64,000 nucleotides of DNA from an uncultured Opitutia bacterium (GTDB taxonomy: Bacteria; Verrucomicrobiota; Verrucomicrobiia; Opitutales; Opitutaceae), in the NCBI GenBank assembly GCA_903825285.1, contig CAIJZY010000006.1, positions 1 to 64,000 on the forward strand, read 5' to 3'. The notes under the pieces were generated by a model that saw nothing but the letters and a program-made list of their open reading frames with translations, was not told the DNA's origin and did no database searches. Numbering within the stretch: the stretch's first letter is position 1; every line of letters starts with the position of its first letter. Made by a program: the position numbers and the translations under genes. Below, piece after piece: positions 10,492 to 63,201 of the stretch.

Positions 10492-11016
10492 ATGCGTGCG
10501 TCCGGCCTGCTCCTCCTGGTGCTCGCCCTCGCCGCCTGCACCCGGCCCGCCCCGCCGGCGGAGCCGCCGCCCACCCGGCCCGAGATCTGGGCGGCCATCC
10601 AGCCGCTCGCGGCCCGCTACCGGATCGCACCGGGCTTCATCTACGCCCTCGTGGCGGCCGAGTCGGACTTCAACCCGCAGGCCCGCAATGGCCAGGCGCG
10701 GGGACTCCTCCAGCTCACGCCCGCGGCGTGGCGGGCCGTGTCGAAGGCCCCGTACGAGCCGACGGTCTGGGACTGGCGCGCCAACCTGGAGGCGGGCATC
10801 GATTACCTTGCCTATTCCCGCGCCTATCTGCACCGCCGGACGGCTTTTTCCTATCCACTGCTCCTGGCATCCTTCCACTACGGCCTGGACTACGTGGAAG
10901 AGCGGCAATTCGACATCGGCCGCATCGCCGTGCCTCCCAGTCCGATCTATCGTCAGTTGTGGGACGGCAACCTGGAGCCGGTTGCGCCGCCCGGCGGCGC
11001 AACCGGCTCCAGGTGA
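10492..11016 (+). CDS. lytic transglycosylase lipoprotein (SLT domain)
   Basis: A 174-residue lipoprotein that should cleave peptidoglycan glycan strands with anhydro-muramyl ends. The lipobox LALAAC puts the lipidated Cys at residue 16. The Slt-type catalytic Glu is E57 in LVAAESDFNPQARN, followed by ARGLLQLTPAAW, the family signature. The domain is short but complete to the Tyr-containing helices (YLAYSRAYL). The start ATG is 11 bases after fabF. The last 14 codons are part of a perfect 20-bp inverted repeat, so the C-terminal residues are shaped by an RNA hairpin. Confidence 0.85.
   Translation: MRASGLLLLVLALAACTRPAPPAEPPPTRPEIWAAIQPLAARYRIAPGFIYALVAAESDFNPQARNGQARGLLQLTPAAWRAVSKAPYEPTVWDWRANLEAGIDYLAYSRAYLHRRTAFSYPLLLASFHYGLDYVEERQFDIGRIAVPPSPIYRQLWDGNLEPVAPPGGATGSR
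10971..11013 (+). terminator. perfect 20-bp hairpin overlapping the 3' end of the transglycosylase gene
   Basis: Bases 10971-10990 are the exact reverse complement of 10994-11013, with a 3-base loop (CCG). The stem ends directly before the TGA stop at 11014. No T tract follows, so it may protect the 3' end or pause RNA polymerase rather than act as a classical terminator. Confidence 0.7.
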
Positions 11017-11111
11017 GAGTTGAAAGCTGAAAGTTGAAAGCCAGGCCCGGGAAAATGTCAGACCGGGGTTTCGGGTCCCAGGCCTTTCATCTTTCAACCT
11101 TCAACTCGCAA
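11013..11111. repeat. inverted heptad-word array A
   Basis: The left arm holds heptads in strict register (11013-11040) with the core word TTGAAAG at 11020 and 11034 and CTGAAAG at 11027. The right arm (11084-11111) holds CTTTCAT, CTTTCAA, CCTTCAA and CTCGCAA, the inverted version of the same words. The centre is GC-rich. It separates the convergent transglycosylase and hybrid-kinase genes, and the right arm runs into the last codons of the kinase. Same word family as the array at 34707-34796. Confidence 0.75.
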
Positions 11112-12900
11112 CAGGCTTGCCCCGAGCAAGCCATTTCCCAAGGCAGGCATGCAGCTCCTCGCGGCGGACGGGCTTGGCGAGAAAGTCATCCATGCCGGCC
11201 GCGGCGCAGGCCGCGCGGTCCTCGCTCAGCGCATTGGCGGTGAGGGCGATGATCGGCAGCCGTCGGCCGGCGAGCTTGGTGCGGATGCGCTGCGTGGCCT
11301 CGTAGCCGTCCATGCCCGGCATCTGGCAGTCCATCAGCACGACATCCCAATTGCCGCGCACGGCGAGGTCGGCGGCGGTCTCGCCGTTGTCCACGACGGT
11401 GCACTCGAGGCCCGCCTTCTCGAGCATGAGGCGAATGACCTGCTGGTTCACCCGGTCGTCCTCCACGATCAGCACGCGGCCGTGCAGCGGCTGGAGTCCC
11501 ACGCCCGCCGCGGCCGGCGCCGGCGCGGTCTCGGCCGCGACCGGGAGGGTGACGTCGAAGCGGAACTCCGAGCCCTGGCCGGGCTCGCTCTGCACGGTGA
11601 TGAGCCCGTGCATGCGCTCCACGAGGCGCTGCGAGATCGCGAGGCCCAGGCCCGTGCCGCCGAAGCGCCGGCTCATCGAGCTGTCAGCCTGCGTGAAAAC
11701 CTGGAAGAGCCGCTGCCGCATCGACGCGTCGATGCCGATGCCGGTGTCTGTCACCGTGAACCGCACCGTCGCCGTCCGGTCGCCGCGGCCCACGGCCTCG
11801 ACCCCGACGGTGATCGAGCCGCGCTCGGTGAACTTGATCGCGTTGCCGACGAGGTTGAGCAGGACCTGCTTCAGCCGGCCGGCGTCGCCCACGACGGTGC
11901 CGGGCAGGCCGGGGCCCAGGCGGCAGACGAGCGCGAGCTGCTTGGCCCGGGCGCCGGCCTGCATCAGCTCGACCACCTCCTCGGCGGCCCCGGCGAGCGG
12001 GAAGGGCAGGGATTCGAACTCCAGTTTGCCGCTCTCGATCTTGGAGAAGTCCAGGAGGTCGTTAAGCAGCCGCAGAAGGGTGTCGGCCGAGCCGCTGGCG
12101 ATTTCCGCCTGGGTCTTCTGCTCGGGACTCAGCGGCGAGGCCTGCAGCACCTGCAGCATGCCCATGATCCCGTTCATCGGCGTGCGGATCTCATGGCTCA
12201 TGGTCGCGAGGAACTCGCTCTTCGCCAGGCTGGCGGCCTCGGCCCGCTGCTTGGCCGTGCTGAGCGTGGCGACGAGGTGCTCGTTCTCGAAGATCAGCTG
12301 GTAGAGGTGGCGGACCGCCGCATGGTGCAGGTGCGTGGTGTTGACGAGAAAACCGATGTAGACGAGGGCGACGATCACGAGGGCCATCGAGCCGGGCTCG
12401 GGAGTCGTTGCCAGCCGCACCATGATCGGGATGAACGTGCTCAGCACGTAGAGCCAGTAGCCGGCCGGCACCGGGGCCAGTGACCGGGCGGCGCCGGCGT
12501 TCAGGCCGACGATGATGCAGAGGATCAGGAGCCGCGGCAGGACCTCGTGGGTGTTGAGGTAGAACCAGCCCGCCACGCCCCAGGTCAGGCCGGCCAGCGC
12601 CAGGCCGGTGAGGAACAGGGTGCGCCACCTCGGCAGCTGGGCGGAGGCCGGGCGCAGCTGCCCAAACGCGAGGTTGAGGCCCAGCCGGAGCAACGAGATC
12701 GCCAGGATGACCGAGAACCACCAGACGTTCAGCGCGGTTGGGAAATGCTGGCCAGAGACGATCACGAGGATCGCCGCCAGGACGAAGTTCGAGAAGAGCC
12801 CGAAATTCGCCGACCGAAACAGCAGCCGGGTCATCTCATCCTCAACCCGGCGCATCACGCCAATTTCCGTGCCGGCCGAGGCTGAAGCGGGTTGCTCCAT
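11101..12900 (-). CDS. membrane hybrid histidine kinase with C-terminal receiver
   Basis: The 599-residue sensor begins with about six hydrophobic segments between residues 35 and 190 and no recognisable periplasmic sensor domain. The HisKA box follows (H236 in [13 protein letters not shown]), then the ATPase domain with DTGIGID and GTGLGLAIS motifs. A receiver domain forms the C-terminus: acidic pair in IVEDDR, phospho-acceptor D524 ([10 protein letters not shown]) and LAKPV with its Lys. Such hybrids pass phosphate from His to Asp and onward to an Hpt protein or a separate regulator, neither of which is adjacent. The stop codon lies inside the right arm of a word array. Stimulus unknown. 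Confidence 0.9.
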
Positions 12901-27039: not shown

Positions 27040-27061
27040 GTCGCTATGCGGGTGGTGCGAG

Positions 27062-27232
27062 TTTCACCACGAAGGACACGAAGCGCACGAAGGCCTGACT
27101 CCGATCTTTGCGCTCGTTGCGGCCTTGGCGGTAAAACAATTCCACCCGGACCATTTTACCGCCAAGATCGCGAAGCGCGCGGAGCAAGACCAAGGCTTGG
27201 GCTTCGTGCGCTACGTGCCCTTCGTGGTGAAA
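27062..27232. repeat. nested inverted nonamer-word array C between convergent genes
   Basis: Outer arms: ACCACGAAG (27066), GACACGAAG (27075) and CGCACGAAG (27084), mirrored by CTTCGTGCG (27202), CTACGTGCC (27211) and CTTCGTGGT (27220), capped by TTTC and GAAA. Inside sits a second inverted pair: GATCTTTGC (27103), GCTCGTTGC, GGCCTTGGC and GGTAAAA, facing TTTTACC with ACCGCCAAG (27158), ATCGCGAAG (27167) and CGCGCGGAG. The inner pair uses the words of array B. Thus one element is nested in another. Confidence 0.8.
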
Positions 27233-27246
27233 TCAACCCGCCTCGC

Positions 27247-31617: not shown

Positions 31618-32835
31618 ATGCCACGCATCGTCCAAAAATATGGCGGCACCTCGGTGGGTGACGTCGAACGCATCAAGAAGGTCGCCGAGCGGATCAAGGC
31701 CTCGCGCGACGAGGGCCACGAGCTCGTCGTCGTGGTCTCCGCCCGCTCCGGCGTCACCAACGAGCTGATCGCCCGGGCCAAGGCGGTGTGCGAGTTCCCG
31801 AGCGAGCGCGAGCTCGACATGCTCCTCGCCACCGGGGAGCAGGAGACGATCGCGCTGACCGCGATGGCGCTGCACGGCATCGGCGTCGCCGCCGTGAGCT
31901 ACACCGGCGCGCAGGCCGGCATCTTCACCGACAAGGTCCACACCAAGGCCAAGATCAAGACGATCAACGCCCAGCCGGTGATCAAGGACCTCAAGGCCGG
32001 CAAGGTCGTCATCGTCGCGGGCTTCCAGGGCATCAACGAGGAGGGCCACATCACCACCCTCGGCCGCGGCGGCTCCGACCTCACCGCGATCGCGCTCGCC
32101 GCCGCCATCAAGGCCGACAAGTGCGAGATCTACACCGACGTCGACGGCGTCTACACCGCCGACCCGCGCGTGGTGAAGACGGCGCACAAGCTCGACGAGA
32201 TCTCCTACGACGAGATGCTCGAGCTCGCCTCCTCGGGCAGCAAGGTCATGCAGACCCGCTCCGTCGAGTTCGCGAAGAAGTACAACGTCGTGTTCGAGGT
32301 CCGCTCCTCCTTTAACCACAACCCAGGAACCATCGTGAAAGAAGAAGTCGCCTACATGGAGAAGGTCGTCGTCCGCGGCGTTGCCGTCGACAAGGACCAG
32401 GCCAAGATCATCGTCAGCAACATCCGCGACAAACCCGGCTCCGCCGCCCGCGTGTTCCGCTCGCTGGCGGACGCCAACGTGAACGTCGACATGATCGTCC
32501 AGAACGTCGGCCGCCAGGGCGTGGCGAACCTCACCTTCACGGTGCCCCAGACCGAGACTTCCCGCGCGGTCCGCGCCCTCGAGCCGGTGCTCGAGGCAAT
32601 CGGCGGCGGCCAGGTGTCGGTGCACGAGCACATCGCGAAGCTCTCCGTCGTCGGCGTCGGCATGAAGACCCACTCCGGCGTCGCCGCCACGCTGTTCCAG
32701 GCGCTGGCCGACTCGGGCATCAACATCGAGCTGATCAGCACGTCCGAGATCAAGATCTCCATCGTCCTCGACCTTGACCGCGCCGACGAGGCCGCCCGCG
32801 TCGCGCACGCGGCGTTCAACCTCGACAAGGTCTGA
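31618..32835 (+). CDS. lysC: aspartokinase
   Basis: The 405-residue kinase phosphorylates aspartate at the head of the Lys/Thr/Met pathway. KYGGTSVGD opens the protein, GRGGSDLTAIALA and EIYTDVDGVYTADPR follow, and the C-terminal regulatory half holds two ACT domains (about 265-405). The size is that of monofunctional alpha-type subunits; an internal start for a beta subunit is plausible around the ACT boundary but not shown. It is 11 bases after hom. No lysine riboswitch is visible upstream. Confidence 0.95.
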   Translation: MPRIVQKYGGTSVGDVERIKKVAERIKASRDEGHELVVVVSARSGVTNELIARAKAVCEFPSERELDMLLATGEQETIALTAMALHGIGVAAVSYTGAQAGIFTDKVHTKAKIKTINAQPVIKDLKAGKVVIVAGFQGINEEGHITTLGRGGSDLTAIALAAAIKADKCEIYTDVDGVYTADPRVVKTAHKLDEISYDEMLELASSGSKVMQTRSVEFAKKYNVVFEVRSSFNHNPGTIVKEEVAYMEKVVVRGVAVDKDQAKIIVSNIRDKPGSAARVFRSLADANVNVDMIVQNVGRQGVANLTFTVPQTETSRAVRALEPVLEAIGGGQVSVHEHIAKLSVVGVGMKTHSGVAATLFQALADSGINIELISTSEIKISIVLDLDRADEAARVAHAAFNLDKV

Positions 32836-32849
32836 GCGCGGCCGCGTTT

Positions 32850-33326
32850 AGAGGTCAGAGCTCAGATGCCAGAGGTCAGCCAGCCACCGCGCCGTCCGCC
32901 CACGGCAATTCGTCACTTCACCGAGTTGATCGTCTGGCAGAAATCCCATCGCGTGGCGCTGGAAGTCTTTCGGCTCCCCAAAGCCTTTCCGCCGGAGGAG
33001 CGATATGCCCTCACCGATCAGGTCCGCCGCTCCTCGCGCGCGATCGGCGCCAAGATTGCCGAGGCCTGGGGCAAGCGTCGCTATGAGGCCGCGTTTGTGG
33101 CCAAGCTGGTGGATGCGGATGCCGAGGCCCACGAGACCGAGCACTGGCTGATCAACGCGTGTGCCCATGGCTACTGCACGGAGGCGCAGGTGGCGGTCAT
33201 TCGTGCACTTCTGCTCGAAGTGGGCCGAATGCTGGGCAGCATGATGAACGCACCCGCCACCTTCCTCACCAAGCGCCCAGTTTAAGTATGCAGGTCCTGA
33301 CCTCTGATCTCTAGCCTCTGACATCT
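32850..33326. repeat. inverted heptad-word array D enclosing a four-helix-bundle gene
   Basis: The left arm is four heptads in register: AGAGGTC (32850), AGAGCTC (32857), AGATGCC (32864) and AGAGGTC (32871). The right arm is CCTGACC (33296), TCTGATC (33303), TCTAGCC (33310) and TCTGACA (33317), plus TCT at 33324. The two arms mirror each other and enclose the 139-residue gene. The gene's ATG (32866) is inside the third left-arm word, and the thrC ATG (33327) abuts the right arm. Confidence 0.85.
32866..33285 (+). CDS. four-helix-bundle protein (23S rRNA intervening-sequence protein family)
   Basis: A 139-residue protein of the PF05635/TIGR02436 type. The family pattern is IVWQKSHRVALEVFRL near residue 24, then DQVRRSSRAIGAKIAEAWGKRR and a final helix with LLLEVGRMLGSM. 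Relatives were first noted as intervening sequences in 23S rRNA genes of Leptospira and include Avd, the accessory protein of diversity-generating retroelements; they form helical bundles that bind nucleic acids. The first residues (MPEVSQ) are encoded by arm words of array D. It interrupts the lysC-thrC pair, as an insertion would. Its function, and any role in moving the arrays, is inference. Confidence 0.85.
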   Translation: MPEVSQPPRRPPTAIRHFTELIVWQKSHRVALEVFRLPKAFPPEERYALTDQVRRSSRAIGAKIAEAWGKRRYEAAFVAKLVDADAEAHETEHWLINACAHGYCTEAQVAVIRALLLEVGRMLGSMMNAPATFLTKRPV

Positions 33327-34685
33327 ATGAAGTTCATCTCCACCCGCGGCCAGACCCCGCCGCTCGGCTTCCGCGATGCCGTGGCGACGGGCCTGGCGCC
33401 CGATGGCGGGCTGTTCCTGCCCGAGACGCTGCCGGACCTCTCCGGCCGGCTGGCGGGGTGGGCCGGGCTGGGCTACGCGGACCTCTGCTTTGAGTTCATG
33501 CGGGTCTTCGCGACCGATCTCCCGGCGGCGACCCTGCGCCCGCTCGTGGACCAGTCGTACCGCGGCTTCGAGGACCCGGCCATCGCGCCGCTGCGCCCGC
33601 TGGCGCCCGGCCTGCAGGTGCTGGAGCTGTTCCACGGCCCCACGCTCGCGTTCAAGGACTTTGCCCTCCAGCTCCTCGGCCAGCTGTACGGCCAGCAGTG
33701 CCGCGACCGCGGCGAGACCATCAATGTCCTCGGCGCCACCTCCGGCGACACCGGCGCGGCCGCGATCCACGGCCTGCTGGGCCGGCCGGGCACCGCGATC
33801 TTCATCCTCTATCCCGACGGCCGCGTGTCGCCGCTGCAGGAGCGGCAGATGGCGTGCACGGGGGCGGACAACGTCTATGCGCTGGCGGTCGAAGGCACCT
33901 TTGATGACGCCCAGGCGGCGCTGAAGGAGGTCTTCGGCGACCAGGCCTTCCGCACCGCCCACCGGCTCTCGGCGGTCAACTCGATCAACCTCGCGCGCGT
34001 CCTGGCCCAGTGCGTGTACTACCTTTACGCCTGGCTGCGGTTGCCGGCGGCGGAGCGGGCGGACGTCGAGTTCGTGGTGCCCACCGGCAACTTTGGCAAT
34101 GTGCTCGCCGGGTGGCTGCTCCAGCAGATGGGCGTGCCGATCGGCGGCTTCCGGATCGCCACCAACCAGAACGACATCCTCTACCGGCTGTTCACCACCG
34201 GAGAGTATCGCGTGGCGGACGTGAAGCCGAGCCTGGCGCCCTCGATGGACATCCAGGTCGCGTCGAACTTCGAGCGCTTCCTCTATTACCGCGTCGGCCG
34301 CGACCCGGCCCGGGTGCGGGCGGTCATGGAACAGTTCCGGGCCACGGGCGCCTGCCGTTTTTCCGACTGGGATCATGCCGGCTTCACGGCGTCGCGCTGC
34401 GACGACGCGGAGATCCCCGGCATCATCCGCCGCGTGCATCGGGATTATGGCTACGTGACGGACCCGCACACGGCGTGCGCCTTCAAGGACCTGACGCCAG
34501 GTCGATCGCGTGTGGTGCTGGCGACGGCGAGCCCGGCGAAGTTTCCCGAGACGATTCGCGCGGCGATCGGGATTGAGCCGACGCATCCCGCGCTCGAGGC
34601 GCTCAAGTCGCGTCCCGTGGTGAAGCACCGGCTGCGCGCCGCGAAGGGCCCGATCCAGGATTTCATCGCGGCCCACGCAGTGTGA
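33327..34685 (+). CDS. thrC: threonine synthase
   Basis: The 452-residue PLP enzyme converts O-phosphohomoserine to threonine. The PLP Lys is K110 in HGPTLAFKDFALQLLG; the phosphate loop is GATSGDTGAAA; FVVPTGNFGN and the C-terminal PHTACAF match the long (fungal/proteobacterial) class. It is preceded immediately by the right arm of array D, so any ribosome site must lie in the arm (none is obvious). thrB is not in the window. Confidence 0.94.
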   Translation: MKFISTRGQTPPLGFRDAVATGLAPDGGLFLPETLPDLSGRLAGWAGLGYADLCFEFMRVFATDLPAATLRPLVDQSYRGFEDPAIAPLRPLAPGLQVLELFHGPTLAFKDFALQLLGQLYGQQCRDRGETINVLGATSGDTGAAAIHGLLGRPGTAIFILYPDGRVSPLQERQMACTGADNVYALAVEGTFDDAQAALKEVFGDQAFRTAHRLSAVNSINLARVLAQCVYYLYAWLRLPAAERADVEFVVPTGNFGNVLAGWLLQQMGVPIGGFRIATNQNDILYRLFTTGEYRVADVKPSLAPSMDIQVASNFERFLYYRVGRDPARVRAVMEQFRATGACRFSDWDHAGFTASRCDDAEIPGIIRRVHRDYGYVTDPHTACAFKDLTPGRSRVVLATASPAKFPETIRAAIGIEPTHPALEALKSRPVVKHRLRAAKGPIQDFIAAHAV

Positions 34686-34706
34686 CGGGGCGGGGCCTGT
34701 TGTTAG

Positions 34707-34796
34707 TTTAAGGTTGAAAGTTGAAAGCGGCGGACCTGCGGCCGCACCACGGTTTGGGTTCCGCGTCTTTCAACCTTCAACCCTCAACTTTCAACC
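34707..34796. repeat. inverted heptad-word array E downstream of thrC
   Basis: The left arm is TTTAAGG, TTGAAAG (34714) and TTGAAAG (34721). The right arm is CTTTCAA (34767), CCTTCAA, CCCTCAA and CTTTCAA (34788) in register. An outer GACGGGGC/GGCCCCGTC pair flanks them (34684 and 34801). It shares its word with array A at 11 kb. Confidence 0.75.
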
Positions 34797-34873
34797 GCCC
34801 GGCCCCGTCGCGGGGTCGGGCCACAGGTGAAGTTACGACGCTAATTTTTCGGAGTTTGCACTCGCCCAGCGGA

Positions 34874-45468: not shown

Positions 45469-45480
45469 GCGAGGGCGGAA

Positions 45481-45647
45481 GTAGCGAGTAGCGGGTAGCG
45501 GGTAGTGAGTAGTGAGTAGCAGGATGCGGATGGCGAGTCGTGGGTAGTTGGCAGGGAAAGCAGGAATTCGCGAGCGGAAGAACGGTGCCGTGGAAAGATC
45601 GAAATCTTGGTTGGGATGCTCGCTGCACGCGACCCACGACTCGCTAC
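45481..45647. repeat. heptad-word array H between two permease genes
   Basis: From 45481 words with consensus GTAGYGR run in unbroken seven-base register, six clear copies up to 45522 and degenerate ones to about 45564. GCGAGTCGTGGGT (45533-45545) is the exact inverse of ACCCACGACTCGC (45632-45644) in the right arm. It fills almost the whole 185-base spacer. Confidence 0.8.
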
Positions 45648-45653
45648 GGCCGC

Positions 45654-47313: not shown

Positions 47314-47413
47314 GAGTCCCGCCGAGTAAGGGCGAAACGCCCGGCGCCGCAAGCGTCGCGTTGGCCTGCCGGGCGCGCGACGGGGCGGGAAAGGCGACGC
47401 CGGCCAGGCTCCA

Positions 47414-47535
47414 GACGAACGCCAAACCTTCAACGCCGCACGCCCAACGTCGAAGTACTTTCTAGCGCGCGGCGACGCCGCGCACGGGAATTACTTCGAT
47501 GCTGGGCGTGGGACGTTCGGCGTTGGGAGTACGTC
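47414..47535. repeat. inverted heptad-word array J between DUF455 gene and parA
   Basis: Left-arm heptads in register: GACGAAC (47414), GCCAAAC, CTTCAAC, GCCGCAC, GCCCAAC (47442), GTCGAAG. Right-arm heptads: CTTCGAT (47494), GCTGGGC, GTGGGAC, GTTCGGC (47515), GTTGGGA, GTACGTC. A perfect GCGCGGC/GCCGCGC hairpin occupies the centre (about 47468-47484). Confidence 0.75.
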
Positions 47536-47539
47536 CGGC

Positions 47540-63126: not shown

Positions 63127-63201
63127 TGGAGGCGCGGGCCGGAATCGAACCGGCGCATAGAGGTTTTGCAGACCTCGGCCTTACCACTTGGCTACCGCGC
63201 C
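63127..63201 (-). tRNA. tRNA-Cys (GCA)
   Basis: A 75-base tRNA on the minus strand with encoded CCA. The acceptor GGCGCGG (63195-63201) pairs with CCGCGCC (63131-63137); the anticodon loop reads CTGCAAA with anticodon GCA; the T-loop is TTCGATT. The discriminator is U, the Cys identity base. Confidence 0.95.

Follow-up and report, generated by a model that had tools for sequence, protein, structure and literature searches.

A PF05635 gene between heptad arms in the lysC–thrC gap: a probable hairpin cassette of the kind known from rRNA intervening sequences

The stretch of DNA analysed here (the window, 64,000 nucleotides from an uncultured Opitutia bacterium) encodes on its forward strand lysC (31618–32835; 405 aa) and thrC (33327–34685). 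These names, like those of the other flanking genes in relatives, are readings of translations and not annotations. The gap between the two genes is occupied by two arms of degenerate tandem heptads that enclose a third gene. The left arm (32849–32879, forward strand) begins 13 nt after the lysC stop and consists of the heptads AGAGGTC, AGAGCTC, AGATGCC and AGAGGTC, preceded by T and followed by AG. The right arm (33297–33326, forward strand) is made up of the inverted heptads CTGACCT, CTGATCT, CTAGCCT and CTGACAT followed by CT, and thrC starts on the next base. The enclosed gene (32866–33285, forward strand) encodes a four-helix-bundle protein of 139 aa with a predicted pI of 9.56, which matches the profiles PF05635 (E 2.9e-28; 98.6 bits, cut-off 33.8) and TIGR02436 (90.7 bits, cut-off 24) and has the solved homologues 2rld and 2gsc. 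Its ATG (32866–32868) lies within the third heptad of the left arm. The preliminary description of this locus, which had reported a PF05635/TIGR02436 gene enclosed by arms between lysC and thrC, with a start codon in the third heptad and a right arm adjoining the thrC start, is borne out by the coordinates, the arm complementarity and the profile scores.

The two arms are complementary at 77% over 31 nt and at 88% over the first 17, and TRF assigns a period of 7 to both with low scores of 30 and 32. The alignment score of 34 narrowly exceeds the best of 60 shuffles (33), and the stability of the folded element is modestly above that of shuffles (z −1.46). Since the window arms alone are barely beyond chance, the case for them rests on the family. 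The only Rfam match in the 64-kb window is a tRNA at 63130–63201; the element lies between two protein genes and not inside an rRNA gene. Rfam also returned no match in the 20 of 80 loci from other phyla that were submitted.

The family was examined by an arm test, which is passed when the complementarity score of the flanks exceeds the best of 60 shuffles. The genome of the window encodes five PF05635 genes, all co-directional with both neighbours according to a reading of ORFs and sequence. Four of them pass, each with its own word (AGAGGTC in the window, AGTAGCG, CGATTTA and AAGTGAC); the fifth (L001) fails with a score of 25 against 36 and has, by eye, worn TTTAAGG-like arms. PF05635 is found in 39 of 57 relatives' genomes with 191 matches in total, 114 of which were examined, mostly from the best score downward. 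After removal of five with cut flanks, 90 of the remaining 109 loci pass, and a lag of 7 is the best period in 78. Outside these genomes, one conserved peptide retrieved 588 relatives from named genomes of many groups, and the best 80 were taken. One had cut flanks, and 61 of the 79 scored loci pass, the best lag being 7 in 45, 8 in 13, 10 in 10, 12 in 7 and 9 in 4. By the same measure, controls drawn from genomes of the window's family only gave 20 passes among 300 random positions, 10 of which had 7 as the best lag, counted over all 300, and none among 79 ORFs of 95–160 aa. The preliminary description had left open how often such genes are bracketed by arrays and had regarded array-free PF05635 genes and an association at chance level as fatal to its view. 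Bracketing proved to be far beyond chance, so that the refuting outcome did not arise, though there are failures: 19 of the 109 loci in relatives and, elsewhere, 18 of the 79 from the best 80 of 588. A control with mispaired arms is weaker than the shuffles: 61 of 109 loci, and 25 of the 79 from the best 80 of 588, have a true score beyond the 99th percentile of mispairs, presumably because many units share AGGAGTC-like words. Inverted terminal repeats able to form a stem are narrowly supported for the window element and strongly for the family.

Arm words are mostly 7 nt long, and words of 6 and 8–10 nt also occur. Among Bacteroidales (L173–L217), many arms consist of units of 8–10 nt, such as GGAGTTAAAA, instead of 7. 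All ten cyanobacterial plasmid loci pass the arm test, as do five of six viral contigs that encode PF05635 relatives (L305–L310); a search of a phage record collection with a stretch of 2gsc gave no match. The cargo gene is under purifying selection: dN/dS has a median of 0.10 and a maximum of 0.21 in the 25 of 50 pairs at ≥70% identity that had usable dS, the pairs not being independent. The proteins are not uniformly basic, with a median pI of 7.91 and 47 of 97 above 8.

The arm words follow the relatedness of the enclosed proteins. Among 107 proteins compared in 5,671 pairs (seven were left out: L061, L126 and five short domains), an arm similarity of ≥30 is reached by 60% of 15 pairs at ≥80% identity, 37% of 35 pairs at 70–80%, 26% of 81 pairs at 60–70%, 7% of 167 pairs at 50–60% and 0–1% of 5,373 pairs below 50%. 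Many of the close pairs share a site (10 of 15, 21 of 35 and 31 of 81 in the three upper classes). The AGTAGCG units L002, L051, L056, L075 and L076 provide eight pairs without a flank match that are 76–85% identical and have arm scores of 42–54. Conversely, the sdhA–sdhB spacer (genes named by reading) holds two unrelated units with 21–27% identity (L004/L141/L143 and L052/L074). The arms of one unit also change together. Of 114 pairs at shared sites, 100 have arms that fit their own partner better than the corresponding arm of the other locus, and 2 are ties; when only pairs with no locus in common are counted, the figure is 24 of 27. An earlier count of 83 of 84 was set aside as biased, the arms having been picked by their own fit. 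A fixed terminal inverted repeat common to all copies, as in IS elements and MITEs, is not found, the word differing between units. The PF05635 protein may act on the arrays, as the preliminary description proposed, the tracking of words with protein relatedness being the best support for such a role.

Comparison of sites shows closely related units at different places, and one and the same spacer may lack the unit, hold arms only, or carry the gene-bearing form. Thirty thrC loci, the window included, were examined among 49 genomes with a match, and lysC was found in 28 of them. Sorted by eye, these 28 lysC–thrC spacers comprise 4 that bear a gene, 8 with a gene-less hairpin (in three congeners with an AGAGGTC-like word), 1 with the right arm alone, 6 of only 21–48 nt and 9 others. 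The empty sites for which the preliminary description had suggested looking in relatives therefore exist. Cyanobacterial plasmids, of which 8 of 25 records were taken first, followed by 10 further regions, present clearer cases. A full unit in Calothrix contrasts with a stop-to-start gap of 3 nt in three plasmid relatives, and the empty nrdB–nrdA gap measures 16 nt by a reading of the start and 40 nt as annotated. A spacer next to TraM is 52 nt in its empty form, and in Nostoc ATCC 53789 it holds arms without a gene, with a left junction nearly the same as in gene-bearing units. The TraM unit recurs at another site in Geminocystis with a protein of 72.5% identity. Similarity between the Nostoc and Geminocystis units covers the arms and what they enclose but does not extend beyond them, and the word differs alike in both arms (ACAGGGA to mostly AAAGGGA). 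No target-site duplication was seen at the cyanobacterial filled and empty pairs; at these pairs, bases of the spacer are not the same or have been replaced. Plasmids from two orders of cyanobacteria (L313 and L318) have an S23 gene between cas6 and cas4, a gap in which Dolichospermum (L321) carries a different inverted repeat, GTAGGTTGGGTTG.

Heptad arrays also occur without a gene. The window contains three gene-less hairpins without assigned strand, at 11010–11112 and, just after thrC, at 34700–34797 (both with the word GTTGAAA), and at 45474–45653 with the word AGTAGCG, which is that of the resident gene-bearing element L002. Arrays of more than 76% GC were excluded from this hairpin listing. 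Two further long inverted repeats with word-like content, one of CAACGCC type at 47411–47538 and one with ACGAAGG at a spacing of about 9 nt at 27043–27246, are perhaps worn members. In 395 kb of the window's genome, 29 period-7 arrays were found as against 2 after 3-mer shuffling, and 22 of them are paired with an inverted array. Background levels are seen for periods 5, 8, 11 and 13; periods 6, 9 and 12 are also high, which we ascribe to coding. The earlier proposal of a wider family of word arrays, with the window unit as one of its gene-bearing forms, is supported by hairpins that carry the same words at other places in the genome but lack the gene. Resident gene-less hairpins with the words AGTAGCG, CGATTTA and AGAGGTC match gene-bearing units in the arms only, and the interiors of six of them are unlike gene-bearing interiors. 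Gene-less hairpins were accordingly rejected as plain deletion derivatives. By eye, members of the AGTAGCG family have GAGCAT at the inner arm ends.

The pairing of arrays varies between genomes. A relative without PF05635 (G015) has 25 period-7 arrays per 400 kb, just 2 of them paired. Among genomes with the gene, 5 of 15 arrays are paired in G014 (8 PF05635 genes) and 1 of 4 in G030 (5 genes); G040, with none, has a single unpaired array. Since the values come from five genomes and scatter this much, any connection of pairing with the gene is a lead only. In G015 (L265–L284), 20 of the 25 arrays are pyrimidine-rich on the sense strand of their neighbours; by eye, many immediately precede a start codon, and some fall within a reading frame.

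The abundance of such arrays with and without the gene would be expected if arrays came first, growing in spacers by slippage and hairpin-templated repair and receiving PF05635 genes as guests. The unrelated interiors of gene-less hairpins fit this explanation, and the joint change of the arms of one unit is what conversion between arms would give. It is nevertheless rather unlikely, as arrays of this origin would not be expected to carry words that track protein relatedness across different sites, homology between the Nostoc and Geminocystis units would not run from arm to arm and stop there, and ORFs of similar size would not fail the arm test throughout. Moreover, where the gene is missing (G015), 23 of the 25 arrays are unpaired.

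The position of the units was determined for 68 relatives' loci with passing arms and co-directional neighbours, in which a unit is about 500 bp long. Between the upstream stop and the beginning of the left arm the median distance is 1 nt, and 51 of 68 loci fall within −10 to +40; from the end of the right arm to the downstream start the median is likewise 1 nt, though this value is approximate (29 of 65 loci fall within −10 to +15). The gene's nearest ATG follows the left arm by a median of 10 nt, and just 15 of the 68 loci have it within the arm, so that a start codon formed by an arm word, emphasised in the preliminary description, is a property of the window locus but not a rule. Orientation was called with a codon model in 106 loci, three of the 109 being too short: both neighbours are co-directional with the gene in 83, both are opposite in 2, one locus is mixed and 20 were not fully called. 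Five of eight annotated cyanobacterial plasmid loci are sense and three antisense to both neighbours; the co-directional bias is thus not absolute.

Co-directionality and a right arm close to the next start codon are also features of a resident regulatory gene of the operon, whose arms would serve as attenuator or RNase III switch for the downstream gene, with the protein as regulator and nothing moving. Purifying selection and the co-variation of the arms are compatible with such a role. A resident regulator is, however, hard to reconcile with relatives whose spacers are empty, gene-less or filled with other words, with related units at unrelated sites and with the antisense cases, and this explanation is considered improbable. 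Least probable is a retroelement or REP-type unit that depends for its movement on a reverse transcriptase or Y1 transposase of its own, supplied from another place in the genome. Although PF05635 is related to Avd of diversity-generating retroelements (the window protein matches PF22296 and NF033474 below their cut-offs; accessible parts of PMC10053308), searches for PF00078 and PF01797 in 57 present-day genomes, many of them drafts, found both missing from element-rich ones: PF00078 gave no match at E 1e-5 in any of the genus's 12 genomes (2–11 PF05635 genes each), and PF01797 gave none in G008, G001, G020, G027 and G033 (11, 3, 7, 5 and 5 PF05635 genes).

The window unit is best regarded as a probable mobile hairpin cassette of the type of the intervening sequences (IVSs), living in operon gaps. 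As the comparison of loci shows, its ends are the two inverted arms of tandem words, its cargo is the PF05635 gene, and it fills the gap between the stop of one gene and the start of the next. The gene would be read from the host operon transcript, which would explain why gene and operon are mostly co-directional. The arms may pair into an imperfect stem as a candidate target of host RNase III, by analogy with rRNA IVSs, and a cut between cistrons would presumably have little cost. As loops of rRNA and operon gaps could both be cut at little cost, both addresses of such elements would be explained. The protein may recognise the hairpin of its own arms and, together with enzymes of the host, help new copies to insert. 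Hairpins that have the same words but no gene would be non-autonomous relatives of the cassette, and the moving form might, speculatively, be RNA or single-stranded DNA. A reverse transcriptase or Y1 transposase is not needed for the proposed cassette.

Several observations count against the cassette. Of the 15 acidobacterial loci in the set taken from the best 80 of 588, 9 fail the arm test. The 25 arrays of G015 show that arrays do not need the gene today, and in G014 most arrays are unpaired despite eight PF05635 genes. The antisense plasmid loci are a further difficulty, and so are the unrelated interiors of gene-less hairpins and, for the window element itself, the narrow margin over shuffles and the modest folding stability. 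No movement and no target-site duplication were observed. Sense-RNA pairing was also looked for in the mismatches of the passing arms among L001–L005 and L036–L224, but the expected excess of G.T is absent. A.C exceeds G.T on the sense strand in two data sets (214 versus 156 and 145 versus 102), which is the opposite of what G.U-tolerant pairing of sense RNA would leave and led to the rejection of this line of support.

A broader proposal can be put forward only tentatively, with the balance somewhat against it. The units may represent a widespread class of mobile elements in at least ten phylum-level groups (judged from record titles) without known transposase, recombinase or reverse transcriptase, which end in hairpin arms of a tandem word matching their own four-helix-bundle protein and enter stop–start junctions. 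Ribosomal IVSs, cyanobacterial heptanucleotide repeats and the heptad hairpins of Xanthomonas would be scattered parts of this class. The cassette itself assigns a common orphan family of "four helix bundle" proteins to a defined setting and structure. It connects rRNA intervening sequences with heptanucleotide repeats and with PF05635/Avd-like proteins, and units with empty sites are available for testing. For annotation, such genes in conserved operons, for example between cas6 and cas4 in two cyanobacterial plasmids, may look operon-associated yet be lodgers; a large CRISPR survey names a 23S rRNA IVP in a figure legend (PMC10910872, legend text).

Several known systems share parts of this organization. 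Avd of diversity-generating retroelements belongs to the same wider protein family as the window protein (available sections of PMC10053308), whereas no reverse transcriptase was found in the genus (PF00078, G000–G012). REP/RAYT systems and MITEs resemble the present units in that few gene-bearing units stand beside many gene-less hairpins with the same end words, but here no Y1 transposase was found, no target duplication was seen, the end words vary and the interiors are unrelated. The proposed comparison with a REP element carrying its own protein consequently goes no deeper than the layout, since PF05635 is no Y1 transposase and no Y1 gene was found in G008, with its 11 PF05635 genes.

Tandem heptanucleotide repeats of cyanobacteria are known as STRR. 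These and the repeats of GGGAATC type in Xanthomonas and Nostoc and TAACTGA in Beggiatoaceae are heptad words in spacers, as here, and the window element with its degenerate tandem heptads in a spacer can be counted among them; it differs in that gene and paired arms form one unit. Two Xanthomonas genomes contain 70 and 75 convergent pairs, and the genes at which the long ones lie are not shared between the two (PMC4692102, in part); the TAACTGA sets are described as mostly intergenic and measured against downstream start codons (PMC4679880, in part). Neither S23 nor four helix turned up in a text search of either paper. The open-access literature yielded no paper linking PF05635 genes to heptad arms outside rRNA, which is weak evidence of absence because subscription papers and most preprints were outside its scope.

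A nearer likeness than REP, not named in the preliminary description, is the S23p-encoding IVS of 23S rRNA, the closest known system. According to the accessible text of PMC4990558, the IVS of Coxiella 23S rRNA contains an S23p ORF of the PF05635 family within terminal inverted repeats, which form a 28-bp stem and lead to excision by RNase III. Cutting by RNase III is thus published there, whereas for the window unit it is suggested by analogy. The Coxiella S23p is seemingly not made (same source, in part), which counts against the cassette reading and contrasts with the purifying selection on the protein here, and the window unit lies between protein genes and not in rRNA. The likeness itself extends to an S23p-type ORF, inverted terminal repeats and heptamers: in the part of PMC4990558 available, the S23p ATG of Coxiella is preceded by heptamers in tandem, three of them GACAGAT and the fourth a variant, and their number varies between strains.
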